Notes under the pieces: generated by a model | Database searches by the model: none | What the model was told of the DNA's origin: nothing | What the model saw: only the letters and a program-made list of their open reading frames with translations | Part shown: piece by piece, positions 3,451 to 43,255 of the stretch | How positions within the stretch are numbered: the first letter of the stretch is position 1 | Layout of the letters: each line of letters starts with the position of its first letter | Source of the DNA: Medicago truncatula | Taxonomy: Eukaryota; Streptophyta; Magnoliopsida; Fabales; Fabaceae | Direction: 5' to 3' | Assembly (NCBI RefSeq): GCF_003473485.1 | Contig: NC_053044.1 | Location: 25,107,591 to 25,171,590 of the forward strand | DNA length: 64,000 bases | Program-made: the position numbers and the translations under genes

Positions 3451-6400
3451 TCAACGAGCAGCGCCGGAAATTGAAAACTTTCCAGAAACACTAGGCAAAG
3501 GTGGTTCTGTCACATTACTATCGTTCAAGACTGGAAGTGGAGGGGTAGGTGGTGGAAGGTCTAATTTAGGTATATGTTTTAAAAGTTTTCCAGGTGGAAT
3601 AGGGCTTATATAAGGTGCTTTTTTCGCATGCTTTAAACATCTGTTCTCTGCAATAAGTAGATCAACAAGCCAACAATGATTAATTCAACATTTGTGTAAT
3701 TGATACTGATGTTACGGACCAAAAAAGGTTGCGGGAACAAAATCCAAAAGAAAACTTATGGAGACTAAAAGTATAAGTAAACCAAAAAATTTCATATACT
3801 ATAACAGATTTCCATTTAAACAAGAAACTATTATTTAAAAAACTCGATCAATGCTAGACCGTTTAAATTTTTGTTTTCTTATAACTAACTAGTTGAAAAG
3901 TTTATCCAATGTCAATTTTCCAAATACCTTATTCAAGTAGAAAAGTTTTATGAAGAATTTTATACTTACTCGTGTATCGAACAGCCGTCTTAGGGAAGTC
4001 AGTAATAATGCCATTAACCTTAGCTCCAACGACAAATGAATTAATCTCAACAGATGGATCTGAGTAGTAATCCCATGCTTGAGATACAAATTCATTGCTG
4101 AAAGTTTCTACGTAAACTGGTAGCTTAAATGATTGCAGCCTTGCTACAGTATTTGTAGAGTTAACAAGAAAAGCTAAATTTTGAGTAAAAACAGAAGCCT
4201 TTTGTAGCACAACAGAATCAGCAAATGTTTTGATGTCCTTGATAGCTTTATCATCGGCATCATGAATATTCTCATCAACTTTGTAAACCCTTTCATATTT
4301 GGATTTGTCCTTGAATATCTTAAGTACTGAGCTGTGTGTTGACTGAATCATAATTTTACGAGATTTTTGTTTATCGTAACCTGCCTTTTGTAGAGCATTA
4401 AGGACTGATTTGGTAACACTTAATCCCCTCTTCGATGCGAGATAGGCAGCATTCTGATAGTGAAATAAAAATGACATTAATATAGCATAAAGGGAATTAA
4501 TCAAGGTGTTAATCGCTCGTTATATCACTATGAAGTATTTAATCCATATCTAATAGGAACTCACCTCGATGCTGATCAAGACACGAGAGCCTTTAGCCAA
4601 GGACAAAAAATCTGACAAGGTTACAAATTTCCCTTGATTTTTAAATTTCGGATTCCGGAACAATGTATATTTCGCATAAGGTTTCAATATTGAGGCTGCA
4701 ATGAAATAACAAGAAATAATGTATAAATCAAAGGGATAAATGCTAAACAATATGATACATAGAAAATAAGTATTCAAGAAAATCATTCAACTTACGAGTC
4801 AATGTTTTGATTTCGTTCCATGTCAAGCTAAATGTATATATGCCACTGCCATTTTGAATCTCTGGAATAATCGCTGTGCGGTTTCGGAATTTTGTATCAG
4901 CAACTGTTGTACTCGTTGAAAGATCTATAGAACTTAAGCAAAAGGGTACTCCATCCTTGGACAATTGAACAGGACAATCAATTACATCTGCTCCATCCGA
5001 TTTAGCTTTCTTATATGCAAGATCGGTGCAAGCTGGATAGTCGCCACTCGCTCCGTATTTTGTGATAATTAAAGTCTCCACTTTAGCATGAAAAAAATAA
5101 TTGAAGAGATAGGTAGGAACATGTCAATAAAGATTATCCAAATATTATGCTACCTCAAAACAAAATATAACTTGTTTAAAATGAAGAAATGAAATGTGTC
5201 CATCGAGAGTTCAAATAAATTATACCTTGTTTTTTGGCATTTCTTCCTATGCCAGCAAAGCAATCTGTAGAAGGAATTACCACAATATGATTGGATGCAT
5301 GTGTAAGAATTTTTTACACTGACGATGTATATCTTTAAAATTTTTAAACTAATCTATAGAGAAGAAACAAAACTTACTTATGGCTGCAGACGGAGTTACT
5401 GGGAAATCAGACAGAACACCATCAACAGAGAAGTTACCGTTGTCGATGAAAGACAAAACCTCGGCCATAGGATCATAACTGAAATTGTAGCTGAATGGAA
5501 CATCATTAACAATATCTGAGACAAAAACTTTCAGCCCATGTTTATGAGCATCTGAGACAAGAGAAGTATGTTGATGTAGATAAAGTTCCGAGTCTACAGA
5601 CCATATATAGCTTTTTGGAACAAGAATTCCGGAAGCAAATGTTCTGATGAATTTGAGGTGTTTCAAGAGTGCTCCATAAGTCTTGTTGCTGGTAGGTTCA
5701 ATTTTATATTGATCTAGAAACCTGAAAACCGTAACGGTTTTTTTAAGACTTGATTTTTTTCTTACTCTTTGCAAGAAATTCGCGTTAGGCGATGAGATGT
5801 AACTGATAGTTACTTTTTCAGCTGAAAGAGAGTGAAGATATTTCTCTACACTCAAATTGTGATGCTTGTAGAATGTATCATGCTGCATATTATTTTGAAA
5901 GTTAAAAGTTAATGTCGGAATCACAAACTCAGGACCTGATTGAAACAAAATATATTCCATTAAATTTCAGCATTACCTGAACGTTTAACCATAAGCCTGC
6001 TGATGATGATTTTACCAATTTAGCGACATTTTCAACACTGAGAATGTAATAGTTACTTCCATCAAACTTTGGAGTCCGAGAATACACTCCTTGAACAACT
6101 GTCCAAGTAACAAGAAAATTATCAGTGCAGAAATTTTCACAGGAAAGAATCTGCTTCTATGATGAATGAATACATTCTCGAGTTGGAACCTTGTTAACTG
6201 AGTCAAGACACAATTTTATAATTCGAACGAGAAAAATAGGACTTACGCGAGACAATTTGTAGTTCTTTGAAGTTGAAATCAAAAGAAAACCATCCGCGAG
6301 TTGGAACCATGTTAACTGAATAATCCTTCGCTTTGCCAGGGTAAACAACGGAAATGTCAGTGGCATTGTCAAGTTTGACGTCTGGAAAACAAATCCCAAC

Positions 6401-15701: not shown

Positions 15702-15782
15702 CTAGTCGAGATACCCGTGCTACAGCACGGGTAGCGCGGCTTTGCCGCGCTGTACGGCGCGGCTTCGCCGCGCTTATCGACA
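15702..15782 (-). other. Helitron 3' terminus with three tandem hairpins
   Basis: Next to CTAG (15702-15705) lies a 9-bp stem with a 2-nt loop (15713-15732). Two further perfect hairpins follow inward, GCGCGGC-TTT-GCCGCGC and GCGCGGC-TTC-GCCGCGC. They are the most GC-rich bases for kilobases around. The first matches the usual Helitron termination hairpin; the other two are near copies of each other. Confidence 0.8.
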
Positions 15783-16029
15783 GGGTACGTTCCAAAATAA
15801 TTACGTTTATTGCGGATAGTGAAAAAATGAGTTGCTTTCATATATTAGAAGTAGATACTTGCGGAAAGTTGCTTTATTAGGCACCAATTTGATCATTTCA
15901 AAAGACCCTGCTACAACAGTAGTAATAATTATAAAGAAAAGGAAATATAAATTTATTGTAAGAAGTACATAGGAAAACATTTGATAGTCAAAGTTACACA
16001 ATAAATTTAGCAATAAGAATAGTAGACTT

Positions 16030-16976
16030 TTAATATTGTCTAGTTAATCTAAATACAATAATGATGTTTTTTGCCATGACAGAGTCACACTTAAATTCTA
16101 GAAGAGTCCCAGGAGCAATGCGATTGCTTAAGCAAAATCTTCTCCATCCACTTCCAATTATAACAATTGTGGTATTTGTTTGTGGATCATTTATAAATAG
16201 CAATTTACATATTGTGACGTTGTTAGCTGTTCCACATAATCTAAGATATTCATGGTTTTTAGCTTGTAAAAAGTTGCCAAGATCAGTTGGTAAAATCTGT
16301 AACACCAAAGAAATGATATAACATAGTGAAATATTTATAGAGTTGTATAAAATGGAATCTGTAATAAGTAATATTAGAAAATAAAATATAAATATATAAA
16401 GGCTTACCAATTTTGAACTAACAATTGAATTTTCTGGAACTGTGAGTTGATATGTTAGATCTCGAGTAATGCAAGTAGTCAATCTATGGTAACGTGGATA
16501 TTCATTTTTTGGTGTAGAACCATCGAATATTTTGATTTGGAATACACTATGACCTAAATATGTGAAAGACATAAGTGGATTCAATGTGATATGATAAAAA
16601 TCTCTAAATTGATGCCAACCGGTAGTAAGTATTGGTATGGTGAGGATTTTGTTAAATTCAACTTGATGACAATTGCCAATACCATCTTGTAGCATCCATT
16701 GTTCTTGTAGTTCATCGAAATATTCTGCAACAAAAAGTGGATCTAATTCGCAAATAATCTAGAAAATAAAAAAAAGTATGTTAGTGGTGTAGCATGTAAA
16801 TAAAACTGAAGAAAGAGATATTGAGAAAATTTATTAAGTTATGTTAGTAATACCTCTGTGCAAACAGCTAAGAAAGAAGGTCTATTGGATTCAATTGTCA
16901 TCAATGGAGCTCTGCTGGATTGCCCTTTTCTTTGATTTGATGGTAGTTCACTGATAGAGGAAGCACTGGACTCCAT
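16030..16976 (-). CDS. B3-domain DNA-binding protein carried by the Helitron (two B3 domains)
   Basis: Three exons close in phase: 16976-16854, 16758-16408, 16296-16030, giving 246 aa. After a short Ser-rich N-terminus, the first B3-like domain holds TTGWHQFRDFYHI and FTYLGHSVFQIKIFD. The second holds ILPTDLGNFLQAKN, GSGWRRFCLSNRIAPGTLLEF and a closing IIVFRL. The GW..F...N.....G....F pattern is diagnostic of B3 domains of the REM-like plant class, which bind DNA. The gene lies 0.3 kb inside the Helitron 3' end, on the same strand as the helicase. Splice sites are standard (GTATTA, GTAAGC; TAG and CAG acceptors). The intact frame suggests a recent capture or maintained use; targets are unknown. 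Confidence 0.75.
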
Positions 16977-17471
16977 TGTTAGTGGACTGAAAGTTAAATG
17001 TTTACAACAATTTGAATGAAAAATATGATACTGAGATAAGTGAGTTGGTTTTTGATGGAAGGTCTATTTATATGTATGAAGTAGAGATAATGAAAAGTAG
17101 TAGAATAAGATATGTGAAAAGCAACTGTTACACTTATTGGAAGATGCAAAGGCTGAAATAAGGCTGAACACGTCTCTGTTGGTGGCTGAATAGTCAATCA
17201 CGGTTGGTTGGCATATTGTAACAGTGTATGAGCTGCATTAAAGCTTACGTGTAATAAGCAATAAACATTATTTATAAAAGTTGTTAATAATATAAGGTAA
17301 TATACAAACATTATAATGTTTAAGTTACACAAATAAAATGCTAATTAAAAGAGTTGTACTAAAATATTAGACAATAATTAGGTTCAAATAAAAAAAAATA
17401 GTCTAGTTAACACAACAACATTACATAATTGTTAATTTATTTAATAAAAGCACATAATAAATACATAAGTT

Positions 17472-18446
17472 TCACTGAATAGTATTTGAAGTAGACCCTG
17501 ATCCATGGATGGAGAGTTGATAAACATGGCACATACAATGAGGACTATTTGTAGTAAATTTGAATCGGATGATTCCTGGCTGGAAATTATTTGCTCGGCA
17601 TAATTTGTCCCAGCCCACTCCCAATTCAACAGTCGATTTTTCATTGTTACAAATAAAGACTTGAAACGCTTCAAATGTTCCTTGATCATGGCAGCAAGCA
17701 AGCATCTCATACTTTTTTTTTTTAGAAACTCACCAAAATGGTTTGAAATTCTCTGTAGAATAAAAAAATTAAAGTTAGACAGAACATGTAATTATATTTA
17801 AAATATAGAAAACAAAAAATTAAAGGAAATAAGGAATATTAATACACTAATATTAAAATATAGAAAACAAAATAAAAAATATTAAAAATGTATAGTAATA
17901 ATTATATAATTGATGAACTTAACGATTGTAGGCCTTTTCAAGAGCATATCATTAACCCCTTGATCAAAGAAAAATGTTTCTTTTGGAAGGAGACTACGAC
18001 TATGAAATTTCGGTAATGTCTTTGGATCATCAATTTCTCTTAACATGCAAATGGCAAAGAGATCTATGTCATAGAAAGAGAACACAACTTCAGCATTATC
18101 AGGAATTTCGTGGTATTCCTTAATCTCCGCCCAGCCATCTGTTATTGTTGGAATATATGAGTTTTTGTTGAACTTGAGTTCATGAAATCCTCCTTCTTCG
18201 TTTAAAAGTTTCCATGTACCCCTGAGGCAGTGATGATTTTTGTTGACAAACCTTTGATCAACCTCAGCATAGTTCTAATTTGAAATAAAAAAAAATTATA
18301 TAGATGTTATTATTGATTAAGAAGTATGAATGAGGCAAAAATAATTTATAAGAAGAATGAATTAAAACCTGAAATGCTAATCGAACCACCGAAAAAACCT
18401 CAATTGGATCAGTTTGAAGTTTCGTTATAATTTGTTGTGCATTCAT
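17472..18446 (-). pseudogene. second B3-domain gene in the Helitron, frame broken at a poly(A) run
   Basis: Exons 18446-18369 and 18274-17924 join in phase: MNAQQIITKLQ.., then a B3-like domain with GTWKLLN, TDGWAEIKEYHEI and VVFSFYDIDLFAICML. A third exon from 17752 begins RISNHFGEFLKKK in phase. The rest of its B3 domain (GTFEAFQVFICNN, GVGWDKLCRANNFQPG, stop TGA at 17472) lies in another frame. The change falls in a run of 11 A's on the coding strand (T's at 17713-17723); 9 or 12 would keep frame. This could be real slippage or a base-calling error. An upstream in-frame ATG at 18494 is possible. The layout parallels the neighbouring B3 gene, so the two look like an old tandem pair. Confidence 0.65.
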
Positions 18447-19511
18447 TTTTCTCTGGCAATTTTGAGTTGATGAATGGTATGATATTGCATTCACTACTAT
18501 ATATAGAGGAAATATAAATATTATTAAATTATATAATTGAATATGTTATAAATTTTTGTAGTTGATTTGGTAAGGATGAAACCAAAATCGTCTCTCACCT
18601 TGTGATAAGATCGTACAATACATTTCACTAAAAATAAGAACATAAATGTAGGTGATTTGCCAATTCAAATAGCTAGACTGTGCTCTCTTAAACTTTTGAC
18701 GGATAGCACATGGTATAAGCACGTGATATTGTGAAATGTAGTAGTGAATGTGTGCACAATAGGACAAATTCAAGAAATGTAGTAGTGAATGGTGTACAAT
18801 AAGACAAATTCAAAGCTGCAGGTGTTATATTTGTGTACTTTGTTTGGTGCCACTACAACCATTCACATGTCCTATATTTCTCCAACATCTTACTGGTACT
18901 TTGACTAAAAATAAGAAAACATACATGTTGGTTTTATTGATGATTTGACAATTCAAGTTGTAATACTATTCAAGTATAGAAGATGTGTTATGCATGCAAG
19001 TTGGGTACTTACAAAGTGCAGGTGTGTAGCATGCGTTTATCAGTAACTTGTCATATAGTGGAATTTGGATGCAATTATACTACTTCATGTGTAATATAAA
19101 TAATTATGAATTGATTTAGCTGCAACCACTTTTCAAGACTTAAATATAAACTTTATAGTTGCACTTATAAGATAATAATATATGTCATTAGTTACACATA
19201 GTAAACTGAATTAATGTTTCCTCAATCAAAATAGCAACAATGTCCAAGTTAAATGATAACTGTGGAAAAGTTCAATTGAACTTGGATGTTGTTACTATGT
19301 GAATCCATTAATCCATTATGCACCTATATCAGGTCCAACCAAAAAAAGAAATGAAGTCAACTTCTACGTTGTTGCTATGTGAGTCCATTAATCTCTTGTG
19401 CACCTAAATTTAAAAAGGAAGAAGATAAGTAAGTGTAGTTTATGATCATAGGTAGATAAAATCAGTGCATCATAAATTTAAAACGAAATTGTAGGAATGA
19501 GTTAACTTACA
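18447..19511. other. Helitron spacer between B3 genes and helicase, with short tandem duplications
   Basis: No gene is seen. A unit of about 41 bp (AAATGTAGTAGTGAATG.. to ..GACAAATTCAA) is repeated at 18734-18774 and 18775-18814. A looser pair, TGTTACTATGTGAATCCATT and TGTTGCTATGTGAGTCCATT, each followed by TGTGCACC or ATGCACC, lies at 19286-19326 and 19369-19406. Confidence 0.55.
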
Positions 19512-22500
19512 TCATAGATTTTCAAAAACTTCCTTGTAGACTACATTCATGGTAGTTGACAGTGGGATTTTGTCCTTGTCATGAATTAATATCTTTAATC
19601 CAGCCTTACTCTTTACCCTCGACATAGCAACATACAATTGACCGTGACTAAATACGGATGTTGGAAGATATAAACCTACACTGTCTAGTGATTGACCTTG
19701 AGATTTATTGATAGTCATGGCATAAGAAACTATAATAGGAAATTGTCTTCTGGTAAGCTTAAATGGCCATGGGGATTGGGAAGGAGACATATCCATTCTT
19801 GGAATGTAAGTCATGCTTCCTATATTTGTACCTGACATGATTTTCGCTTCAAGAACATGGTTGGCCATTCTAGTAATAATAAGTCTAGTACCATTGCATA
19901 ATCCCATTGATTGGTCAATATTTCTCATAAGCATGATAGGAGTTCCTACTTTCAACTTAAGTTTATGACCAGGCAGACCTGAGCATCTCAGGGAATTTAA
20001 AAATTCTGGTGTTAAGATATCAAATGATTGACATTCATCATTGATCTCTGACCTGTCAATCTCATCAGAACTTAAGTATTCTTGTTCTTCTCCTATACAA
20101 TATAATAAATATGGATTGGAGTCATGTTTCTCTTTCAGGTGTAAATACATAAATAATGTAATATATTCGTTTGAAAAGTTACCTGGAATCAATGAGAGTA
20201 TGTAGTCATTTATTTCTTCAACACATTCTATTGTTGAAGCCAGAATTGCTCTTGATTGTAAGTATTGAGGATCATTGTAGTAATTCAAGAAATCTGGATA
20301 TGTACTCTGGAATATAGCCTGTATTGGATTATCAAAATCATGTATTAAAAACTCGGCTGGTATATCAATTTCCACAATTCCATCATTTGGCTCGGATAGC
20401 TTTCCTTCGCCAACTTTCAAGAGCCAATCAGAGAAGTTTTTCAATTCCTGATTATCTGATGACATTGCATTCTGTTGAAGACGCATATTTTTGGTCAGAG
20501 TAAGAACTTCACATGAATCCCATATGTAGGAGGAATTTATTGTAGCATTAATTATGTCTGAGCGATTGGCTCTGGGTATAACCGGTAATATTTGTCGGCA
20601 GTCACCTCCAAATACCACAACTTTTCCACCAAAAATTTTATCTGAGGACATAATGTCTCTGAGAGTTCTATCTAGAGCTTCAAAGCAAAACCTATGAGCC
20701 ATGGGAGCCTCGTCCCATATGATCAATTTGGTCATCTTTAAAAGTTGTGCAAGTTCACTTGTACCATCTATATTACAGCTGGAGTTCTCAAAGGCAGGTA
20801 CAGGTATTTTGAACTTAGAATGTGCTGTCCTTCCTCCTGGTAGCAAAAGAGATGCTATACCACTTGTAGCAACTGTCAAAACAATCTTACCACGGCTCCT
20901 TATCCTTGCCGCCAAAGTTCGCCACATAAATGTTTTACCAGTACCACCATAACCGTGTAAAAAATACACACCTCCTTTCTCTTTACTAACAGATGACATT
21001 ATTTTATGGTAGATGTTGCGTTGTTCATCTGTTTCAAAAATAAGTAAAATTTGTGTCAATATAATAAACTATTTTGAAAATGTTCCAGAAAATGCTAAAT
21101 TAGTGTATACCTGTTAATGTAGCAAAGAGTTGTTGAAATTCTGCATCCAACTCGTTGACATTGTAATTTAATTCATCATAAATCAGTCGGTTTCCAAGTT
21201 GTTCGACAATGTATCCTTCAGGATATGGAAATCCTTTGTAATCCTTCAAACTCCTTCTATTTCTTTCCATGTGCCTTTCAATCTCGGTCAATGTTAAGTT
21301 TTTAATTTGTTCTTCAGTAAGCATTAAACCTTGCACATGATAAAAGTAATTAGATGCCAAATCTAGAAATTGATTTTTACATTTGAAGATCATATAATTA
21401 TTAAGAGATGATAAGCAAAAAAGGCATGTTTACCTGGATTGTTTGCCAATCTTCTTTGTTCATAAAGAATACCATCACTTAGCCATTGCCATGTTTTTTC
21501 CCAAACTTGTTTTGGCCTGTGCATTGAACTTGCGATCAACAAAGTAACAAAAAACAATCTAAGAAAAAGTCCAGAACCCCAAACACTTGCTTCTTTAATA
21601 GCAGCAATGTATTCCTTGTCATCCATCAAAAATCCACTTGCAAAACATGCCTCTCTATAGGTGTCGTAACAAACATTGTTAACAGTTCTGATGTCCTCAT
21701 AAGAGGTTGGTCCTTGGACTTTGGTTAACATCAGTCTCAAGTAGAACAATTCTCCTGTGGTTGGTGGCACCCACATCAACCTTCCTATTGCAAAACCCCT
21801 TTTCCTTGGTGTCCAAGTACGTTTAGCTTTGACATATACAAATTTAGACACAAATTTGGCATATGTAAGTGTCTTAGCTTCAGCGTACTTAGCATTGCAC
21901 TGCAGCCACGATGTAAACATCGACTCTGTAACCGAAGGTCTCAGCATCACATCATCTATATGTTCATAATCATTGAAATATACTGAGTGTTCGCCTTGCA
22001 AATGAAAAAATAACCTTTCAACAGATGGTTTTCTTCCATGAATAGGATATTTAAATATGCGCCAGCAAGCTTCGCTTGGTGAAACATATCTACAATCAAG
22101 GTACTTCTTGATTTCATCCTGACTGTTATCTGGACTTCTACTTGTTGAACCATCAGACACAACAGCTGCAGTTATTCGATCATACCCTTTGTTAATGTAT
22201 TTAAAGAGATACTTGATTGAGCTGGATTGGTTGCACCACTCCATGTTTATATGAGCTTCATACTTCATTAACAAATGCGGATTATATGGAACAACTGACC
22301 GATTGTCCAATGCAATTCCATTCTTTAAAATATGACTGCCATTATCCCTTCTTCTATAGACAGGATAACCCTCATGATCAACAATACTTGATTCCTGAAA
22401 TTTCTTTGGATAGAATTTAGTACAACGGTCTTTGTTATTCATGCAAGGGGATTTTTTATTTGCTAATCCACACGGACCATGCATCATGTGATTGCCCACC

Positions 22501-25076
22501 AATGTGTACAATTGTGGATTGTTATCTGGACTTGGTATTTCAGCTGAAATAATCTTGTCTATGTCTTCTGGGGTAGGATATTTGCTTGACGGGTGCAAGA
22601 AAATAAGAAGGTGTGCATGTGGGAGACCTCTCTTCTGAAATTCAATAGTGTACATGTCTGAAATTTAGAAAATGAAATTATTTGTTAGCAAACATATGGC
22701 AATTATAAATAGGAGTTAATAGTATATTAGAGAGTTGATAGCTACTCACATGCAATGACCTTTCCAAGGAGGTGTTTTTTCGTCAAATCTTTAAGTAGTT
22801 GATCAAACTTGATTTTGAACACTCTTGCTATAATATCAGGTCTATCATGTGGTTTAAGACCTTTTGATGTTACATATCTTTGAATTTCTGGCCAGTTTGG
22901 ATTGCAAGTAAAAGTTATGAACAGATCTGGAAATCCAACCGCACTCGATATCGCCATAGCATCAAAGTAAAGTTGATCCATGTACCTTCGACCACCGGTA
23001 TAGCTCGAAGGTAACACAACTCTTTTACCTTGTTTTGATGACTCTGGTTGATCTTTGTTTTGGTTCTCACTCAAAGACTTGTATTTACCAACTCTTAGCT
23101 TGGATTGATTTTTCCTTAACCATGACAACCTATCAGCTTCCATCATGGTAAAGCAATCAACCAAAAACTGTAGAAATAGCTTTCTTGCACACAAGATTGT
23201 CATCGGTTCAAAAAGTCTGCTTTGTAACCTAAATGCCAACCACTCTCTAATTGTGAGATGAACCCTCTTTGGTTTTTTGCCTGTCTTTTTATCTCTGTGC
23301 ATAACATCATCTCTATACCCATCCTCACCATACGGAAACAAAAGTGGATACTGGTAGGCGAGGTATGCAGGATGAAATTCATCTATCCTTTGTAGCTCAC
23401 CACATTGTGTTTCCATAATGATATCCCTTCTAGGAGCATAATCAACATCACCAAGTATAAGTGCTGCAACTTCTGAAACTGTAGGTTGATTATAGATACG
23501 TCCGTCTGTTGTCCTCTCAGAGATGAGCTTTAACTTCAAATTTTGGACATCACCTTCGGACAACCTATCGCGAGCCATTCTAAATGACTTAGCATGAACA
23601 TTATTTTCATCAAGCATTTTTTGCAATGCTGCAATCATTTGTATATCCAGCAGGTTTGCATTGCTACATTAAGAACAAAAAACATATCAACATTCTATAT
23701 CAATTCTAATATCATAGTTAATATTTAATAAACTATAAACTTGTTATGTACCTGAGACCTTGTAGCCGATGTTGCAATTCATTTTCTGTATCATATATAT
23801 ATAACTGGGCAAACTTTGGGGGACGTCCAGGCATTGGAATCATACTGCCAATTCGGTGACATGCTTGTCCTTGAATCCTAATTGTAGGTGGTCCTCTACC
23901 TCTCCTGATATGGCTGAGCAATGCAGGAGGTTTCCTTAAATATGGTAATTGAATAGTTCCATCACCACAACACAGTCCAAACTTAGGATTTGCACTTTCT
24001 CTAGATTTATTTTTCCTCTCTTGATACCACATACATGCTCCACATCGTTGACACTCTATGACAGGATCACCAATATCATAATATCCTACATGTATTTATA
24101 TAAATTAGGATACTTGAATATAAGAACTAAAATAATGTTCTCAATAAATAGACATGTATTAGGAATGTGGTAAAAAATAATCAATTTGACTGCCTTCAGT
24201 TTTATCTAAATTTAAATAGTGCAAAAAACTACCTTGAGTATGGTATTGAGCACTATCTCTGAATTGACTGCCTGTTAAATCATCTTCATCAGAAGATTCA
24301 CTCTCACTCTGGTGAACTGCATTGTATGCTTCGAAATCTTCACTATTAGCAGAACCATCACTCTCATCATTGATGTCAACATTTTCAGCAGCAGTTGAAG
24401 ATGATGCAATATTTGTATCAATCATCTCAAATCTATTTAATAAATTTATTCCAGTCATATGAGAAGTAGAGGCTTTTCTTGGATTTCGAATCTGGAAGTT
24501 GGATGATGTTGGTTGCGTGAAATTTGGAGTTGTGGTTTTAGGCGGACTCTTTGACATTAGATCATGACTTCTAAGAATAGATGGAGAATCCATTGAAAAT
24601 GGCCTTTGCTGTAATGTTGAATTTGTTCGATGATAATTTGGAGAATTGATTGGAAAAGGATGCTTTGGTCTGTAGAATGGATTACCTCTGGATGCATTTT
24701 TTGAATTTGGAACAGGACTATGCAATTGTGGCAAGCTAGTTTGTGTTCCATGTTTGTATAATGCAGAAATATTTGACACAGAAGGATTTGGATTGAAGGA
24801 TGAAAACGGTCTTGCAGAGGTTATATCACTTGAACTTGGTTTCTGATTGTCTCTTATTAACCTAAATGGAGGAATAAGTTTGTGGTTCCTGTTGGTAGAT
24901 GATTGTGTGTTCTGTGATGTAAAATTAGTGTTGGTGATATCAGCTAATGGAGTTGTAGAAGCTGAAAGAGATGATTTTCGTCTCTTGGGAAACCTAGACA
25001 GAAGAATTTCCTTTCTTCTAAGTCGTCTTGCTTTAGCATCTTTGACATGAGCATCATCTTTTCCTTCATCCACCAT
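19512..25076 (-). CDS. Helitron Rep/helicase (RepHel, HUH endonuclease fused to PIF1-type helicase)
   Basis: Six exons close in phase: 25076-24233, 24085-23752, 23663-22750, 22657-21434, 21329-21111, 21028-19512, giving 1683 aa with no break. It starts at the first true ATG (MVDEGKDD). Order: Ser/Pro-rich N-terminus; Cys-rich GYYDIGDPVIECQRCGACMW near aa 282; Helitron-like N domain (HPAYLAYQYPLLFPYGEDGY); Rep with the HUH motif in KRGLPHAHLLIFL near aa 712 and the paired catalytic tyrosines in YLFKY near aa 847. Then a PIF1/SF1B helicase: Walker A GYGGTGKT near aa 1204, Walker B IIWDEAPM, GGDCRQILPV, and the C-terminal TINKSQGQSL and YVAMSRVKS. It nicks and unwinds DNA for rolling-circle transposition. 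All key residues I could check are present. Confidence 0.93.
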
Positions 25077-25593
25077 GTTTGAAGTTTGAGTTGAAATGCA
25101 AAAGAACAAACCATTAGTATGTGAAATGATATTTGAGTGAATTAGCACTTTTAAACATTTTTGTTTCCCTCCATATCTAAGTAAAATGATATATTTGTAA
25201 TAGTTAACATTTGAAATCTAAATTTAAAATTGATTTCAAAAATTTCACTTTCCCTCCTACTTGTCAAATGTGATTGAACACGGTCTAGAAATAAGAGATT
25301 ACACCAAAATAGGCTATAGATAATTAACAAAAAAAATAAATCTAATTATTATTATAAATTGTTTATATTATTTCTTACTTGAAATCAGCCTTGGAAAGAC
25401 AACATATAGATTACATGATTACATCTAGAAGTCAGATCAGCCATAGGCTTTTTGTGTGATCACGTCTTCCAAAGCTAGAGTTTAGCTGGAAACTATTATA
25501 AAAATGATATAGAGGGAACAATTTTTGGTAGAGTCTACAACAATTGCAGCAAAGTATGGTGTACAATACCAAATCTATAATCTACTTTTTCAA

Positions 25594-25687
25594 TCACATT
25601 TAACTTCATATGAATACATAAAAGATAGCATAAATTATTATCACATTTAACTTCATATGAATACATAAAAGATAGCATAAATTATTA
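25594..25687. repeat. 47-bp unit in two perfect tandem copies
   Basis: The unit begins TCACATTTAACTTCATATGA and ends AAATTATTA; copy one is 25594-25640 and copy two 25641-25687. The second copy abuts the TA duplication of the adjacent MITE. Confidence 0.85.
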
Positions 25688-25945
25688 CTCCCTCCGTCCC
25701 TCAATAAATGATCTAGTTGACTCTGACACACATACCAATGCATATGTTTTATCTTTGATATCTTCAATTATCTAGTAAAAAAAATTATAAAAATTTAATA
25801 TTTTAAAAATACTCATCGAGACGAATCCAACAACATCTTACATGATATTATTTATCTTTGTGAATTAGTATAAAAGTATGGTCAAAGTATGTCAAGTCAA
25901 TAATGTATATTGTCAACTGAGTCATTTATTAAGGGACGGAGGGAG
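25688..25945. mobile_element. Stowaway-like MITE nested in the Helitron
   Basis: The ends are CTCCCTCCGTCCCTCAATAA and TTATTAAGGGACGGAGGGAG, inverted, flanked on both sides by TA (25686-25687 and 25946-25947). This is the Tc1/mariner-type Stowaway signature. It is non-coding. Its insertion postdates the Helitron body. Confidence 0.9.
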
Positions 25946-26435
25946 TATCGTTTTATCAATTTAAGATATTTGTAATATTGTGGCTAAGTGTAATATAATT
26001 ATCATTATGTTTAGAAAACCGAGAATTTATGGTTTAATGATGTTCATTATTGAAATATGGTTAATATAATTTCATCTATATATGGTAACTAATGTTCTAT
26101 AATATCTGATACTATAATGATGTAATTTTAGTAAAAAGATTATTAGGTGTCACATATATATATAAACAGTTTGTCAGTCAATATTGTATTATAAATGTAG
26201 TAGTTAATATTGCATTTGAATTCAAGCACATAAGTAGTAGTAGTCATTCAAAATAGCTTGTGAGTGAAGTCATTTAACAAAAGTCACCGATGTTTGGATA
26301 GGTTAGATAATATATTACATCAGCCAAGATAAGTGCAAAAGACCAACATATGGTACTTAGATAATTGTTCAGAACCAAAGGTCAAAGTTAACCAAAAAAA
26401 GGTAGATAAAAGGTGTTCTTGTTAAGGTGATTTGA

Positions 26436-29062
26436 TTAGTTCTTTGGCTCTAACTTGGGTTGTTTGGCAAGCTTAGTTGAAGAAAGTTGGGTTGCCTCAA
26501 CATCCTGTGTAGAACCAACCCAATCAACATCTTCCTGCGAGTTTCTTTTGGGAGGAGGGGTCGCAGAACTGCAGGAAGGATCGGTTTCATCACAGAGGGA
26601 TTGCTGCACAATCATTCAATGGAATATATGAGGATTCTCTATAATTTGAGTATTTTATGTAGGTTGCTAGTTGTTAAACATTTGGAAAAACTATTTTGAA
26701 AATGACATGTATACAAATAAATAACTTACAGTGTTCAAAGTATCAACAACTAACTCTTGAGACTCCTTCACTTCATCAACCTTCACCTCATCAAGAAGGG
26801 CAAGCTTTGAACTGGCCTACAATCATTGATGGAAAAAATTTAAAATATATTTGTATAGAAACTTCAAAATATTGACTACAATCACGAGGTTATATACCTC
26901 TCCCAATCCAAATTGTTTTTCAAGATTTTTCAAAAGCCCTTCATTGTCACTAATTTGAATAACAGAGTACGGACTTGATTCAGGACAAGCTTTGATTTTG
27001 AAAACCTTCTGTGGGCACACAACTTGATCCAGAATTGGGGGATAAGCCGTTGGATGAAACTGACCAATCTATGAACTCATAAACATTAGACACATATCTA
27101 AAAAGGAACAACACTATATTTAGAAGTAATGGAAAATGTTAACCTCAACCAACTGTTCTTTCAGCTCCTGAGCAGACATTCCTATTATGGATGCAACATC
27201 ATTGTCCCATAACAAAAACTTTGCCTTATCATTCTTGTAAACAGCTTCAACCTCAACCCTAAACCTGAAAATAATAATGCTCATATTTTAGGCTTTAATA
27301 TGAATGTGTAACTCATCTAATTAGTTAATGTTAAAGTTAGATAATTGCATAACTTATATGACCGATCGAATAATATTGAATCTGAGGTAAATGAAACTTA
27401 TGTGCAACTATAACCATACTAACAAATTCTTATAAATATCAACTCTACCTACCTGGGTTTTGCTTCATCATTAATATGGTTTCCTCTACATTTGAGTTGG
27501 CCATTATCCATCCTCACACCTTTAGTACAAAAATTGCATCCATCATAGATCCATCCATATTTGTTGGCATTGATCTTTTTGATTTCAGCAATAGTTACAC
27601 AAATGGTTTCCTTAAACATACAACAATAACCAAAACAGTTATACAATAGTTCAAAACAATATTGATATTGTTGATAATAGGAATAATATCTTACATGCAT
27701 CACATGATTGACCTCAGAAAGAGTGAGAAAATGAGCCTTATTCATGATATCCCCTTGTTGAGTTATCTGAGATCCTTGGGTAAGTTGTGACAATTGTTGG
27801 CTTGCATTGACATCATCAATTGGAAGTTCTGCAAATCTGTGTTGAAGTATTTAAAAACATAGTAACAAATGTTCTCGAAAATTTATTGTGTAAGCAAAAT
27901 TGTGTAAAACATACCTAGTCTTAAACTCAGCAATTTCAGGAATCTCAGCATTGATTATGACCTTAGTTCCAGACCAGGTATTGGTGACACACAAAGGATA
28001 AATACCTAACAGCCAAAATAGACATCAAGACACAGTATTACGATTATAACTATGGTGTAAACACTTGCATAACAATAAATAGATTAAGGATTATTATGCG
28101 AACCTTGTGCTTCTCTAGCCCTCACATGCTTGAGAACAATGAAGATTGTTTCAGGTCCATTTGCCTGGTTAAAAGCATCAAAGAATTGCTTTGCAAACTC
28201 ATCCCAAAGTGTGGCATGAATCATTAGGCCACTGTATTTATACGCATGATATCAAATAAAGTTAGTATATACTTAGAATATGGATAAATTAATAAGTTTA
28301 ACTAAAAACCACCTAGCATCCTTAAGAAGAAAAGTGACTGATCTTATGATTGTTCCCTTTTTATTTGTATTAGTAATATCTTGGAAAGCTCCAATGACAT
28401 CTGGCAAGCACACACACACAAAAAATATAAGTGTTGGTACATCTATATGCACAATAACAGAGAAAGCACTAAAATATTAACCTATGAGCAGATCATTCCT
28501 GTAGTTTCCAGCCAGAATCTCTCCAAAGTCTTTAAATCTGAAAGAGGCTAAAGGGATGGTAGGAAAATCAACTGGTTTGATAATGGTTGCTCCTGAAACT
28601 GCAAGTCTGAAAGGATGAGTCGAAGCTTTGACCGCAACATCGTTTTTCAATACCTTAAAATTTAGCATTGTATAAGTATTGTTCTCCTTCAAGATTTCTT
28701 TCCATTTAGCAAGTTCCTCATATGGAACAGTCAGCTGGATCATGTCATTCTGCATAAATATATCTTGTCTTAATCTTGAATCATTCTTACTAAAAATGCA
28801 GTATTTAAAATAATGTATTTAAGGAATAGAATATCACCTCCTTATCAGCAATTACCATCTCCAAGTACTGCTCCTGTCTGTACTTACCAGTAACACACCA
28901 AAGATCCATGACCCTGACAGCAAGACTCCAAACATCTTTGGAGTCATTCACATCCTTCACATTGTCATAAGGACGAGTAATAGCAATCTTCTTTCCCTTG
29001 TTCATCCTAACAGTGGGCTTACATAGATTAGTGTAGTTCACAATATGAAAAACAACTTTCAT
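26436..29062 (-). CDS. Helitron RPA70-like single-strand DNA-binding protein
   Basis: Eleven exons close in phase: 29062-28838, 28749-28482, 28400-28313, 28231-28104, 28005-27915, 27836-27695, 27610-27453, 27264-27144, 27068-26898, 26816-26730, 26603-26436, giving 548 aa. A later ATG at 29005 (MNKGKKIAITRPYDN) is a possible alternative start. The first OB fold holds DVWSLAVRVMDLWCVTGK; the second includes DVIGAFQDITNTNKKG and ATLWDEFAKQFFDAFN. A C-terminal OB fold carries a zinc-binding set in GCNFCTKGV and LKCRGNH near aa 330-350. The C-terminus is acidic then lysine-rich (STKLAKQPKLEPKN). Plant Helitrons commonly carry such RPA70-like genes, thought to protect single-stranded transposition intermediates. 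It lies upstream of, and on the same strand as, the Rep/helicase. Confidence 0.88.
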
Positions 29063-29960
29063 CGATGATTATATAAAGAAACGTATAGACATTCAGATTG
29101 TTCATAAATCCAGCAAAATCATCAAACAACTATCATCTGCTCATCATGAAACATACAACCGGCCACAGACCAAAAAAACACAAAGATTGATGAAAGATCA
29201 TAACTTTTACAAAGGATTAAGTTTTAAAAATGATAGCTTGAACCAAAAACACACACAGCTCCTGAAGGAGTTTGAAGGATTACAACAAAAACCATTAATA
29301 AACACACCAAAAAATCCAAATAAAGGCTTTTACAAACTTTTTAACTCATAAATGAAAACTTTGAAACACTTAAACTTACATGCAACCATTAATAAACGAA
29401 AATGACAAAAAGAAGAAGAAAAATAACCATTATACTTTTACAGATCTAAATGTTCTTCATGAAATAGATTGAAAATCACCAAATAAATGTGTAACAATCA
29501 ACATGCATCACGAAAGGAAAGCGGAATACGGAGGAAACAAAACGAAATTGATTTTTCATACCTTGGAGGGAGGCAGTTGGATCGATTTTAGAAGAGGAAA
29601 GCAGATTTTAGAAGATGCTTGCGGTGACCGGTTTGATTCTGAGAAGAATATTGAAAGTTAAGAGAGAGTGAAAATATACAATAATGGAGTAGTTTTATCT
29701 CACTGCAACTGATATGATGGTGAACAGTTTGGTTTCCTTCTCAATGAAGAAAAAAGGGTATAATAGGAGGGAGAATTGTATAGCCGTTGGACAATAGGGA
29801 GTAGCTGCAGTAATTTGCACTAATTAGTCCAAAAGTGGTTTTGACAGCCATAATAGACATATATAACCTTGTAAATGGTAAGTGAAAAATTTACTGCAAA
29901 ATCAGGCATGGGTAAATAAGTAAAAATGGTAGTTACTTCCTTTCATATATTGTAAGTTGA
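29063..29960. other. Helitron 5' leader
   Basis: AT-rich and gene-free, it runs from the first RPA exon to the proposed TC start at 29960. It should carry the RPA promoter. On the minus strand the terminus continues GGAAGTAACTACCATTTTTA. Confidence 0.5.
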
Positions 29961-37665: not shown

Positions 37666-40600
37666 ATGAACAAGAAGGTTCAGATCCTACTGTTCCTTTT
37701 CATCTTCAACTCCTTCTCTCTCTGTCTTTACTTCATCCACCACCCTTCTTTTCTCAACCCTACACCATCACCAAATTCTCACATCAAAATTTTCACTAAA
37801 GATTCACCTTTTCGACGACCCTTTATAGAGAAACACAAAACCCATATCTTAAAACCATGGCCAATTCTACCTTCTTACTCACCATGGTCACAACCTTCAA
37901 ATTCAACTCCACTTAGGTCATGTGAGGGTTATTTTGGAAATGGGTTCACGCGATTGGTTGAGGTGTTTTCGGGCCGCGCCGGAGGAGGAGGGTGGTTTAG
38001 GTGTTGGTATAGTGAAACATTGAGGAGTTCAATTTGTGAAGGTGGGAGAGTGAGGATGGTGGTGGAGAGGATTGGAATGGCAAAGGGTGGTGAGAGTTTG
38101 GGTGATGTTATTGGAAGAAGTGAAGATGAGGAGTTGCCTTTGTTTGATGATGGTGCTTTTGAGGTTGATGGTGGTTTAGGGTTTAAAGGAGGGAAGATGG
38201 TTGTTGATGAGGGTTTTTTGGATAGATATGTTCCTAGAGGGGAGATTATGAGACATACTATGCGTGATTTGATTGGTAAGATGAGGGTTGTTGGAAAGAA
38301 AGAATTTAGCTGTGATAAGGTAAGGATTTAGGATGATTAATTCTTAATTTTTTGTTTAAAGTTTTTGACTTTGATCAGTTGGGTATTTATTGATTATTAT
38401 GAGTTAAATTCATTGGTTAGTTGTTATGGAATTGTTGTCAAGTTTAGAATTTTGGGTTTTGCTTTTGATGAAACCAAATTTAGGTATTTTCCATTTATCG
38501 TTTTTGTCTTATTTTGGATTTCGGAATTTGCTTGTGATCAGGCGAGGTTTAGGATGATGATTAATTCATAATTGTTTGTTTATTTGTTTAAAGTTTTTGA
38601 ATTTGATCATTTGAGTGTTTATGGTTATTGGTTAGGAGATTAATTTTCATTTACGGTCGGTAGAAAGAGTTGTTTTACACTGTCAATGAATCACAATCAT
38701 CCATATTTGTGACTTTGAAAAGCAGTTATGCTAAGTTAAAGATCTTTACACATGTATGAATTCAATTCACTGGTTAGATATTAGGGCGAATTAAATTGCT
38801 GTCAATTTTAGAATTTTGATTTTGCTTGTGATGAAATTGAATTAGTATATTTGTTATTTATGGTTTTTGTTTTATGATTGAGTTTCGAATCAGTGCTTGG
38901 ATTTGGTTGAAATTTCTTTGAAGTTTAAGAGATGTTGATGGATTTGTCTAATTTTGATAATTCTGAAATGGTTTGCTGTACTAGTTACTTTTATAAATTA
39001 GTTTCTCTTTTAAGAGGTGGGTGGCATGCTTATCTTTCGGTTCGACCTTATATGGCGGCATGGGACATTTTTTGTGAATGAAATTATGAAAGGCAAAGGA
39101 TTTAATGTAACAGTTAGGTATATAATCAGCTAATTAAAAGAAAAACAAAAACAATTTAGAGATTGGAGGGAATGTGAAATTTTCTTAAACAGGTAAATCT
39201 GTGTATAAAGGAATCAAACAAATTAAGAATGCAGCTAGCCAGCTAGGTATGGCCAATATCTGGTTAGAGGCCATAAATGTAGTTACATTCTGTACAAAAT
39301 TACTTCTGGATTCCACTAACTTAATTTCAAGGTTTGGATTAGTCCCCGTAACTTTTTCGAGTTTCTGTTACACTGTCAAATAACACTTATGTGGCCGTTT
39401 GTTGCTTATACGACATCATCATTGATGAAAGAGGACTAAAACTTTAATCAAAGTATAATATGGGGACAAAAAATGCATTTAGCCCTTTATCTTTCTTAAA
39501 AAAAAACTCAAATCTTCATCAATTTAAAGTGTTCTTCCTAGAAATTTAGTTCTAGACAAGAATTGGGATCTCAATCCCTTACGATAAGATTTGTTCCTCT
39601 TCCTAGAAATCCGTATCTAGAAAGAAATTGGCATCTCAATCCCTAGGAATAAGATTAGTTCCTTTTCAAGACCCAAAAATATCCTCTTCAAAACTCAGAA
39701 AACCGGGAAAAAAATATTACACTACCATGTGTTGAATTTTTTTTCTCCCATCGTCTTCCCACATTGATTCCTGTTCTCCTCAAACCCCAAACCTCATCAA
39801 TTGACATCCCCTGAAAAACAAAAGCAGCAAACCATCACTCTCATTTTGAAAAAGCTAGTGAAGAGCGAGAGGAATGAGTTTGCAGAGGAACGAACAAGAG
39901 ATCTACGAAGACTCAATGGGTTAAGAATATTTTGTCTTAAGTTGATTTTTGTGGGATATTTATAAAAATTTGGGGGCCATGGGAAGAAGGTTTTGCTAGC
40001 GGTAAACAGTGTTCTGATATTTGGCTAAGGATTGCAAGTGCTGCCAATGCCATTGTACGATTGAAAATTCTAGTTAGTGTTTCTGTACTTGTATGACTAA
40101 ATTTTTTCATCTTCTAGAGTTAGATTTCTCCTAAACCCAGAAAAGGGAGAATAAAAAACAATTAGGGTTTAATTGCAAGATGGAGAAGCTATGTCATGAC
40201 TCATGTCAGTAACCACATAATCAATCGCATGTGTTATTAGCAAGCACAGTAACAGCCACATAGGATTTTTTTTTTAACTGAAACACAAAAAATGGGTCAA
40301 TGGTGCTATCCTTTTGTAACATAAAGGATTAACTTGGGAAAAAAAATAAAGGAAAAGCCAAGTCTTCAAAAATAAATAAACGAAATAGTAAGAATCCATG
40401 TAACTGGCCATGCACTCCGTGTATTCTGCCAAAAAGGAGAGTTATTGTGTCTTCATTCTTTAAAATATTGACAAGTTTTATTTGTGTGTTGACACGAGGT
40501 TTTCTATTTGCAGTGGATTGAGGAACCAACACTTCTGGTGACACGCTTTGAATATGCTAATCTATTTCACACTGTTACAGACTGGTACAGTGCATATGTT

Positions 40601-43255
40601 TCTTCTAGAGTTACTGGCTTGCCTAATCGACCTCATTTGATCTTTGTAGATGGACACTGTAAGGTATGCATGATATCAGTTTTGTAAATCTGTTTCATTT
40701 TATTTCAACTATCTGATGATGTTAGTTTGCTTACATTCTCATTATGAAATATGAAAATAGAAAGTATGCAGCATCTTTAATGCTGTTGGTTTGCATGTTT
40801 ATTTCCTTTTTAAATGATTTTTTGTTATTAGCTGTCTACTTGGCAACCAAATATATTGAAATCAAAACTCTAAAGTAAGGTTTTGAGATTCTGATTAGGA
40901 AACGATCATAAGATTTGGAGAGTTGGAAAGGTTGTTGACTATGTCTATGTGTGTAATTTTTGACCTCATTATGAAAATTAGTTATTCACGTTGGCAATGT
41001 TGTCAAGATTGAGATGCTACCTAAGATAGGAGAGGGGGTAGCAAGATCATTAAATGTAGAATCATAACAAGGATCATAAGATTGTACCAAAAAGAAAATC
41101 TATGCATGCAAAACATGAAGAAAAAAAAATGGCATCATTGAAGCAAACTTAAAACTGAAATTTCATAACCATAAGTTGCATAACATCCAAATAAGTCATA
41201 ATAATAATTAGTCACATTAGTCAAATGACTTAGATAATAACATAAAGTTAAAGTTCAAACATAACACAACCACTAGCCCCTGTCTCACTACATCTACTAC
41301 TACTTCCCTCAGCTTTGGCCCACCACCAGAAGCCATGGCCACGTGCACGAAAAGAGAACAAGAAAGAGACAGGGTCGCAGGCAACAAAGCAGAGAGAAGC
41401 GAGAGTGAGAGATTGGAGAACAGGGTGGTTCGTAAATCGCTAGATATAGAGAGACACGGCTGAGAGCTTCACGTAAGAAATAGGGTTTTTTAGGGTTAAA
41501 ATTGTGGGTAGAGTGATTTAAATGAACCGGGTCATGAACTCGACCTGAATACTCGCAGCAGCAGAATCGTGTGAGATCGCACTATATTGAATACTCATTA
41601 TATCTGCGATTTTTGGCTAGGGAATGAAGACCCTCAAAATTATGCTACATTTTGGCTAGTGAGGTGAAGACCCTCGAAATTATGTTTCCATTTGTAAGAG
41701 ACTGAGGCCTTTTGGCTTGGGAGGTGAAGACCCTCAAAATTATGCTACATTTTAGTAATTAAAGTTTATCCTTATTTTTTTCTCTAATAATGATACCACT
41801 GGTCAAATTCTGCCATCAAATGTGGCAGATAAGAATAAGAATGATGATATATATTCATTGTGCGTATAGGTGATCAAAATAATTTTAATCAACACATCTT
41901 CTTTCTTGGTTGGTTTCCAAGGGTCAACTGCAAATTTGATAGGCACTTGTAGTTAAAATTGTGGAAAATGTCAAACACGTGTTATTCTTCTGTGATCAAT
42001 GTCATGTGTCTGTAGTTTAATAAGTTTTCATAATTTTCTTCCATTGGAGCATGTTGAGTTAGAACATGGTTCTCATTATGTGGCTTCTTTCTTCTTCACT
42101 GCTAAATGGAAGTTTGTTTTGTTAGGGTATTATTTTTCATTTAGGGTCTCCCTAATATGGACCTCAAAAAACGGGATCTGCAGTAGGACCCCCATCATTT
42201 TTAGTAAACTACCGCACCTTTTTCCATTTATTTTTTTGACAATTCCCACCATTTTACTAAAAATGGTGAGGGTCCACCTTTGGACCCCTTTTCTTATGTC
42301 CACATTAGGGGTAATAATTTACTGACATTCTTCACTTGTAAGATTCATTTGTGATTAATCTGTAGTTGTGGTTTTGGTTAAATCTGTAAGTTAACAATCA
42401 TGTTGCTTAAGTATTACTGGTTTCTTCCTTCAAACATTATATAAACATAAATGTACTATCCCTTTCTTAGTTTGATTTTCCTTGGCAGACTTCTTTGATA
42501 ATTTATTAGTTTCTTCCAATATTTTTCAGGCTCCACTTGAAGAGACATGGAAAGCGCTATTCTCAAGCGTCAGATATGCTAAAAACTTCACCGGAACAGT
42601 ATGTTTTCGTCATGCTATTCTCTCACCTTTGGGATATGAGACTGCTCTCTTTAAAGGGCTAACGGAAGATATATTTTGCGACGGAGCTTCTGCACAAGAA
42701 TTGTGGCGAAAACCAGATAACGAAAAAACTGCACGTATTTCTGAGTTTGGAGAAATGATTAGAGCATCATTTGGACTACCTTTAAACTTAAACCATGTCG
42801 GAAAACCCATCTCTGGAGGACATAATGTCCTGTTTGTTCGTCGTGAAGATTATTTAGCTCATCCACGTCACGGTGGTAAAGTTGAATCAAGGCTAACTAA
42901 CGAGGCTGAAGTGTTTGAATCCTTGAAAAGTTGGGCAGCTAATTATAAAGGGTGTAAAATCAACCTCGTCAACGGATTGTTCGCACACATGTCTATGAAG
43001 GAACAGGTACGAGCAATTCAAGATGCATCAGTGATCATTGGTGCACATGGTGCTGGTCTTACTCACATAGTATCTGCATTGCCTAAAACTGTGATTCTAG
43101 AGATTATTAGCAGCCAGTTCAGGCGTCCACATTTTGCGTACATTGCGCGATGGAAAGGGTTGGAGTATCATGCAATCAACCTTGATGGGTCGTATGCCAA
43201 TCCTGAAACTGTGATCAATGCGCTGGTCAGCATAATGAAAAGCCTGCGATGTTGA
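37666..43255 (+). CDS. XYLT: N-glycan core beta-1,2-xylosyltransferase (GT61)
   Basis: Three exons close in phase: 37666-38319, 40514-40663, 42530-43255, giving 509 aa. A short cytosolic tail and one membrane segment (LLFLFIFNSFSLCLYFI, about aa 9-25) make a type II Golgi protein. The stem has KPWPILPSYSPW and SCEGYFGNGFT, almost as in Arabidopsis XYLT. The GT61 domain includes LLVTRFEYANLFHTVTDWYS, VSSRVTGLPNRPHLIFVDGH, FRHAILSPLGYETALFKGL, VLFVRREDYLAHPRHGGKV and VIIGAHGAGLTHIVSALP, ending IMKSLRC. The enzyme moves xylose from UDP-xylose to the core mannose of N-glycans in the Golgi. Length fits the family (about 530 aa). A GA-rich 5' leader (37635-37664) precedes the ATG. Introns are 2.2 and 1.9 kb, both filled with repeats. 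Confidence 0.97.
38290..38840 (+). repeat. XYLT: partial tandem duplications across the XYLT exon 1/intron 1 junction
   Basis: The end of exon 1 and start of intron 1 (TGTGATAAGGTAAGGATTTA, then GATGATTAATTC, TTTAAAGTTTTTGACTTTGA) recur at about 38530-38640 (TGTGATCAGGCGAGGTTTAG, then GATGATTAATTC, TTTAAAGTTTTTGAATTTGA). A second internal block (AAATTCATTGGTTAG.. to ..TTTAGAATTTTG) recurs near 38760-38820. The copied junction has GC in place of the donor GT. Confidence 0.6.
41612..41757 (+). repeat. XYLT: three-copy repeat in XYLT intron 2
   Basis: Three copies of TTTTGGCT(A/T)G.GA..TGAAGACCCTC.AAATTATG follow one another with small differences. Near 42130-42310 the intron also holds a GGGTCT/GGACC-ended short inverted structure, possibly a MITE. 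Confidence 0.55.

Follow-up and report, generated by a model that had tools for sequence, protein, structure and literature searches.

Plant Helitrons that carry an RPA gene (PHRPA), for example the Mothra sister family of rice, encode RepHel together with an RPA70-like gene in elements of 8,064-15,513 bp, according to the sections of the published account drawn on here (PMC4683698). In a 64,000-nucleotide stretch of the Medicago truncatula genome (C3:25107591-25171590, hereafter the window) we examined a Helitron that has such genes and, in addition, genes for B3-domain proteins. We read it as a plant Helitron that transposed recently and belongs to a lineage encoding RPA, Rep/helicase, B3B and B3A in that order, with the B3 genes as a standing part of the lineage and not a chance capture; our probability for this reading is roughly 0.78. 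The B3 genes would be a standing part because B3A is conserved across divergent families, appears to be under purifying selection and is apparently exchanged as a 3' module.

Copies, insertion sites and age

A search with 200 bases of each end against the whole 430-Mb genome (42 contigs) found two further near-complete copies, at C4:4517869-4532236 (14,368 bp) and C6:31568399-31584625 (16,227 bp), called here the C4 and C6 copies. All three have different flanks, and their homology is bounded by CTAG at one end and TC at the other. The features of the window copy, in window coordinates, are:

15702-29960, minus strand: complete Helitron of 14,259 bp, 5' end at 29960 and 3' end at 15702, delimited by the three copies in different flanks and by paralogous empty sites
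29941-29960, minus strand: 5' terminus TCAACTTACAATATATGAAA, preceded by a host A; similar 5' ends occur at other loci
26436-29062, minus strand: RPA70-like gene, 11 exons, 548 amino acids, open in the window and C4 copies
19512-25076, minus strand: Rep/helicase gene, 6 exons, 1697 amino acids in the window copy
23911-23912, minus strand: site at which Rep exon 2 has lost 108 bp in frame compared with the C4 and C6 copies; AT microhomology at the junction
17472-18446, minus strand: B3B gene, 3 exons (18446-18369, 18274-17924, 17752-17472), 236 amino acids in C4, frameshifted in the window
16030-16976, minus strand: B3A gene, 3 exons (16976-16854, 16758-16408, 16296-16030), 246 amino acids, open in the window and C4 copies
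15734-15750, minus strand: second, GC-rich hairpin GCGCGGC-AAA-GCCGCGC, adjoining the terminal hairpin
15713-15732, minus strand: terminal hairpin ACCCGTGCT-GT-AGCACGGGT
15702-15705, minus strand: 3' terminal CTAG, with a host T next on the gene strand

An earlier note on this DNA had placed a Helitron with both ends identifiable at 15702-29960. The homology of the three copies stops at these positions, and two paralogous empty sites read across them. Empty sites were sought by joining the flanks and searching the same genome, and the sites found are paralogous, not alleles; each of the three copies has at least one. For the window copy, C5:11979967 (86%) and C3:45527146 (80%) read across ...ATATAAAA|TAAAACTC... 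with a junction at which no base is gained or lost, and around 30 shorter repeat matches extend from a few to some 40 bases beyond it. Insertion was at A^T, without duplication. The C6 copy has an empty site at C6:13430562 (96%) that is crossed unchanged, the target on the gene strand being T^T and not A^T, and a second at C7:43089415 with small changes beside the junction. The empty site of the C4 copy, C1:2844938 (93%), spans the insertion point and has A^T flanks; at the filled site there are four extra bases at the 5' junction, repeating the terminal TCAA, which are missing from the one paralogous empty site.

Tandem repetition of the first 4-5 element bases just outside the 5' end was seen in 4 of the 11 5' ends read (C4:4532236, C7:14326.2k, C1:31520.2k and C2:21170.0k), with TCAA present twice, TCTA several times and TCTAC three times. 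Such repeats could be due to slippage at strand joining.

The window and C4 copies differ at 27 of 14,258 aligned bases (99.81% identity), and the window and C6 copies at 169 of 13,876 (98.78%). When the C6 copy was used to polarise 25 window-C4 differences, the window was found to carry the derived state at 14 and C4 at 11. At a plant substitution rate of about 7e-9 per site per year, we infer that these two copies separated some 0.1-0.2 million years ago. Recent activity of the family is supported, since so few mismatches separate two copies that have different flanks and paralogous empty sites. The C6 copy also has a 2,219-bp insertion in its second B3B intron, and a 307-bp stretch present in the other two copies is absent from it.

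Structure of the ends

Position 15702 is the C of CTAG, and positions 29960/29959 are the TC of the 5' end, with A before it. The copies confirm the hairpin and CTAG followed by T, and the TC start after A, that the earlier note had described. Among the 3' ends read, the three copies included, T follows CTAG in 19 of 19, and in 12 of these the last 48 bases fold as two clean side-by-side stems: a GC-rich stem and ACCCGTGCT-nn-AGCACGGGT (or a close variant), followed by ATCTCGACTAG or a similar sequence. In the remainder the stem is imperfect or lost. The terminal stem of C1_27.08 shows a compensating change. The window copy has a third GC-hairpin unit at 15757-15773; the C6 copy lacks one of the units. 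Judged by position, there are six short elements (1.2-3.1 kb) in which related 3' and 5' ends occur together; in two of them, C1:27.08 and C1:2.32, both ends were read directly.

RPA and Rep/helicase genes

Gene models were spliced by GT-AG joins that keep the frame. The RPA70-like gene (exons 29062-28838, 28749-28482, 28400-28313, 28231-28104, 28005-27915, 27836-27695, 27610-27453, 27264-27144, 27068-26898, 26816-26730 and 26603-26436) is the unbroken 11-exon, 548-residue gene previously proposed. In profile searches only DUF223 stretches of it were matched, below the Pfam cut-off; homologous exons precede Rep in related Helitrons. A perfect 47-bp tandem duplication occupies 25593-25687, between the RPA and Rep genes.

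Rep has exons 25076-24191, 24085-23752, 23663-22750, 22657-21434, 21329-21111 and 21028-19512. The HUH motif PHAH (22622-22611), the tyrosine pair YLFKY (22211-22197), Walker A and motif II are present. Profile scores were 162 bits for Helitron_like_N, 309.6 bits for PIF1 (PF05970) and 85.3 bits for PF21530. Exon 4 aligned with Helraiser, the bat Helitron whose transposase has been solved (PDB 7lcc), at E 3.4e-85, with both PHAH and YLFKY aligned. The element thus has the HUH Rep with two tyrosines, the PIF1-type superfamily 1 (SF1) helicase, the RPA70-like gene and the TC/hairpin/CTRR ends of a Helitron. The frame of the predicted 1683-residue Rep is indeed open through six exons; its length depends on splice choices and is 1697 residues with those used here.

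An open frame is not the same as an intact transposase, and here it hides an in-frame deletion. The 1733 codons of Rep in C4 are reduced to 1697 in the window by a single 108-bp deletion of 36 codons. Both the C4 and C6 copies carry the missing stretch. The C4 fragment that holds it, from a conserved N-terminal stretch of Rep, aligns with Helraiser (E 1.3e-34), and the missing part itself shares F..NIR..NS.FAF.S.G with Helraiser. B3B is affected as well: the A-run at 17713-17723 is 11 bases long in the window and 12 in C4, and only the longer run keeps the frame; the run in the C6 copy is as long as in the window.

The statement that the transposition genes are intact did not hold, and we rejected it: the window copy has lost 36 residues of Rep from a stretch that aligns with Helraiser, and its B3B is frameshifted relative to C4. 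The complete Rep of an autonomous Helitron is absent from it. It could still be argued that the copy is a fully functional autonomous Helitron and that the 36-residue difference reflects either an error in the assembly or a variant that is tolerated, given a Rep open through all six exons, open frames for RPA and B3A, and the young age of the copy. We think this quite unlikely, with the missing residues present in two other copies and aligned with Helraiser, an AT microhomology of the kind frequent in real deletions at the junction, and B3B likewise out of frame. Because 36 Rep codons are lost, the window copy is probably not self-sufficient, and from its sequence we regard it as probably a recent but dependent copy. 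The proposal that it is an autonomous or recently active source therefore survives as to recent activity of the family, and is not supported as to an intact autonomous source, given the Rep deletion and the B3B frameshift.

In the C4 copy all four frames (RPA, Rep, B3B and B3A) are open. The C6 copy has a stop at codon 362 of Rep and frameshifts. Among the matches listed, only the window and C4 copies matched the whole 515-residue helicase query free of stops; seven other near-full single helicase matches carry stops, six at 67-75% identity and one at 47%. This applies to the present lineage, more distant Helitrons in the genome having long open helicase frames.

B3 genes inside the element

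Two B3-domain genes, overlooked in the first reading of the window (18446-17472 and 16976-16030), lie between the helicase and the 3' end. B3A scores 31.8 bits against Pfam B3 (PF02362), above the cut-off of 30.1, and 8 of 11 aligned members match PF02362 at E 0.01. A phmmer search of B3A against PDB sequences gave one match only, at E 1.2. With the fold model, Foldseek alone returned nothing below E 0.001, and its first rank was the B3 domain of TEM1 at E 0.24. The second B3A intron (16297-16407), of 111 bases, can be read through in frame, as can its counterparts at L026 and L037, while others cannot.

Since B3A passes the Pfam cut-off and the genome has many B3 genes, one might suppose that these are host genes of the REM family standing beside Helitrons by chance. 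The B3 genes, however, are enclosed by the fixed ends in each of three copies, at three different sites, and none of 150 Pfam-B3 matches elsewhere, among those listed, lies within 15 kb of a listed helicase. We consider such chance proximity hardly credible, and for the window copy it was rejected on account of its mobilised copies.

Related loci and genome census

Twelve related loci were taken for having helicase or B3 matches, and they are not a control set. B3A-like pieces occur in all 12 and separate B3B-like pieces in 8; three or four B3 pieces are present in some of these elements. In 10 of the 12 loci Rep precedes the B3 pieces on the same strand, the exceptions being C6_21.2, with broken upstream Rep pieces, and C7_46.16, with no Rep within the 6 kb examined. 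Several RPA exons precede Rep on the same strand in five (C4_41.5, C5_23.7, C1_31.5, C7_14.3 and C5_0.155); C2_30.0 has one RPA piece, and the upstream stretch examined is short in some of the remaining loci. C5_23.7, C1_31.5 and C7_14.3 are about 99% identical and about 17 kb each, with the same kind of ends. Because these three share their ends but not their flanks, another family of the lineage has moved together with its B3 genes.

A census of the genome was made by position alone, a B3 match being sought within 15 kb of a helicase, and a helicase being termed close when the best match at its locus had at least 60% identity. The counts, all among the matches listed, are lower bounds: 84 of 1412 helicase and 150 of 583 Pfam-B3 candidates were scored, and 150 of 259 and 147 of 147 in two further searches. 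Entered were 83 of 146 helicase matches (each locus counted once, the remaining matches being additional pieces of those loci), 150 of 151 Pfam-B3 matches, and 99 of 99 and 51 of 112 from the further searches (pieces at loci already entered being omitted).

Of the 23 close helicases, 17 are followed on the same strand by a B3 match and none is preceded by one. For the other listed helicases, some of which have a short C-terminal piece above 60% identity, the figures are 2 of 60 downstream and 2 of 60 upstream; random points lie near a helicase in 0.6% of cases. Starting from the B3 side, a listed helicase lies within 15 kb of 21 of the 62 B3 clusters, and 19 of those 21 show the expected order.

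Selection on B3A and probable exchange of the 3' module

The ratio of non-synonymous to synonymous change (dN/dS) for B3A, measured against the C4 copy, is 0.21-0.30 in 10 of 12 relatives, with bootstrap upper bounds of 0.31-0.43; pairwise comparison between lineages gives 0.20-0.34. In 11 of the 12 relatives at least 242 of the 246 codons align, and in 11 of 12 the aligned codons contain no stop. As read from these codons, the values show that B3A is under purifying selection. For Rep, dN/dS is 0.08-0.11 in 8 of 11 relatives with finite dS, synonymous sites being nearly saturated.

Capture of host genes is common in Helitrons, according to the parts of a 2026 review used here (PMC13317346), and the B3 genes might be captured host gene fragments, passengers without a role for the element. 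Recent copies do evolve neutrally: over the four genes the window and C4 differ by 2 synonymous and 11 non-synonymous coding changes, as expected of copies drifting after landing. In the two closest relatives, moreover, B3A dN/dS is 0.53 (C1_19.86) and 0.61 (C7_46.16), with bounds that include 1. Passengers would not readily account for the low ratios between diverged families, for nearly full-length, stop-free alignment in 11 of 12 relatives, for the constant side and strand at close helicases compared with the others, or for the lack of any listed helicase near the 150 Pfam-B3 matches. The spread of B3A over several diverged families also speaks against a single capture, and we judge the passenger explanation unlikely.

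The 3' B3 module seems to have been exchanged between Helitron lineages, because two pairs are outliers in synonymous difference and the trees conflict over C7_14.3. Across 36 pairs, excluding three within-family pairs and the two outliers, synonymous difference is 0.44-0.62 for B3A and 0.61-0.84 for Rep. In the outlier pairs it is 0.589 for Rep and 0.089 for B3A (C4 and C1_19.86), and 0.674 and 0.282 (C5_0.155 and C4_16.35). A stretch of 92% identity in C1_19.86 covers the B3A gene; Rep has only 77%. If synonymous sites changed more slowly in B3A, that could account for the overall gap between the genes but not for the two outliers. The Rep tree places C7_14.3 with the C4_34 group (96/95) and the B3A tree with C4 (100/100). 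In topology tests, with groups named after the trees had been seen, the Rep grouping is rejected with the B3A data (p 6e-6) and the B3A grouping, weakly, with those of Rep (p 0.028). The tree test on C6_21.2 is weak evidence of exchange, the B3A tree also joining C6_21.2, C5_0.155 and C4_16.35 (60/37) and Rep not rejecting C5_0.155 together with C4_16.35 (p 0.17).

Interpretation and proposed mechanism

Several results weigh against the reading of a lineage with standing B3 genes and a lately disabled window copy. The 108-bp deletion and the A-run difference are known from one assembly. Membership in the B3 family is not established for B3B, which scores 21.2 bits against Pfam B3 with a cut-off of 30.1, and the fold model does have the B3 fold but is weak (mean predicted local distance difference test, pLDDT, 53). 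The dN/dS values count aligned codons only, leaving frameshifts between pieces uncounted; for B3B, dS is infinite (saturated) in 8 of 11 relatives, so that the ratio is not usable as a measure of selection; and the B3A ratio cannot tell selection acting within the element apart from earlier selection on a host gene that was later captured. No B3 was seen at 6 of the 23 close helicase loci, and 41 of the 62 B3 clusters have no listed helicase within 15 kb, which fits decayed copies or an incomplete helicase list. The relatives are not independent, copies of one family being counted several times among the 23, and the 12 loci forming about five groups. Finally, no short motif was shared in the non-coding DNA of three families, the smallest ratio over the three never exceeding 1.4.

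By analogy with Helitron biology, the HUH nuclease of Rep would nick at the 5' TC end, the PIF1-type helicase would unwind the DNA and RPA would bind the peeled strand; the hairpin and CTAG would halt copying, and the strand would join an A^T target without duplication. The window copy may have come by such a rolling-circle or peel-and-paste route, with its 36 Rep codons lost afterwards or in the process. The B3 proteins would most likely act in the nucleus by sequence-specific binding of the element's own DNA; this binding might recruit expression or escape silencing, or might assist end recognition. A wider scheme, which we put forward tentatively and hold to be possible at best, is that the lineage acquired REM-like B3 genes in the distant past and amplified them in tandem, that its families trade them as a 3' module, and that they serve as the lineage's own sequence readers, either for expression against RNA-directed methylation or for marking its own ends for Rep.

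Other contents of the window

Outside the element, inspection by eye suggested two reading frames resembling nucleotide-binding site leucine-rich repeat (NBS-LRR) genes at 49021-50874 and 55297-58053 (617 and 918 amino acids), frames resembling remains of a long interspersed nuclear element (LINE) reverse transcriptase at 61228-62424, glycosyltransferase-like gene pieces at 37666-38331 and 42482-43255, and glycerophosphodiester phosphodiesterase-like pieces at 3929-5960.

Comparison with known systems

Helraiser shares with this element a HUH Rep, two tyrosines and an SF1 helicase; it is an animal element and, to our knowledge, has neither RPA nor B3 genes. REM proteins are themselves B3 proteins, and the VANC protein of VANDAL elements, Mutator-like transposons of another order than Helitrons, is unrelated to B3 proteins. 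VANDAL of Arabidopsis is the closest parallel, and only in how the present case would work: a transposon-encoded protein reads short motifs in related copies, in the passages of the review used here (PMC13317346). In Arabidopsis, REM factors with GDE1 recognise sequences and recruit RNA polymerase IV (Pol IV) complexes, leading to small interfering RNA (siRNA) and methylation in female reproductive tissue, as far as the sections drawn on go (PMC12270911); those are host genes whose action leads to methylation, whereas a transposon would gain by the opposite.

Literature searches, with Repbase and subscription journals outside their reach, turned up no Helitron-borne B3 gene among the titles and abstracts listed, one of the lists comprising 10 of 855 entries, and the term 'B3 domain' occurs 0 times in the parts of the 2026 gene-capture review used (PMC13317346). 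No B3 gene is mentioned in the consulted sections on PHRPA and the Mothra sister family. With those elements, as there described, the window element shares TC, hairpin and CTAG ends, insertion at A^T, recent movement and related short elements; it differs in its B3-domain genes after the helicase and in the GC hairpin beside the terminal hairpin (PMC4683698). The roles of extra Helitron genes are mostly unknown, and B3A and B3B provide concrete proteins with which anti-silencing or end recognition in Helitrons can be examined. A lineage that keeps B3 genes under selection would connect regulators encoded by transposons to the REM factors with which the host positions siRNA production. Compared with the plant RPA-Helitrons in the portions of that account used here (PMC4683698), what is new is the B3 gene set.

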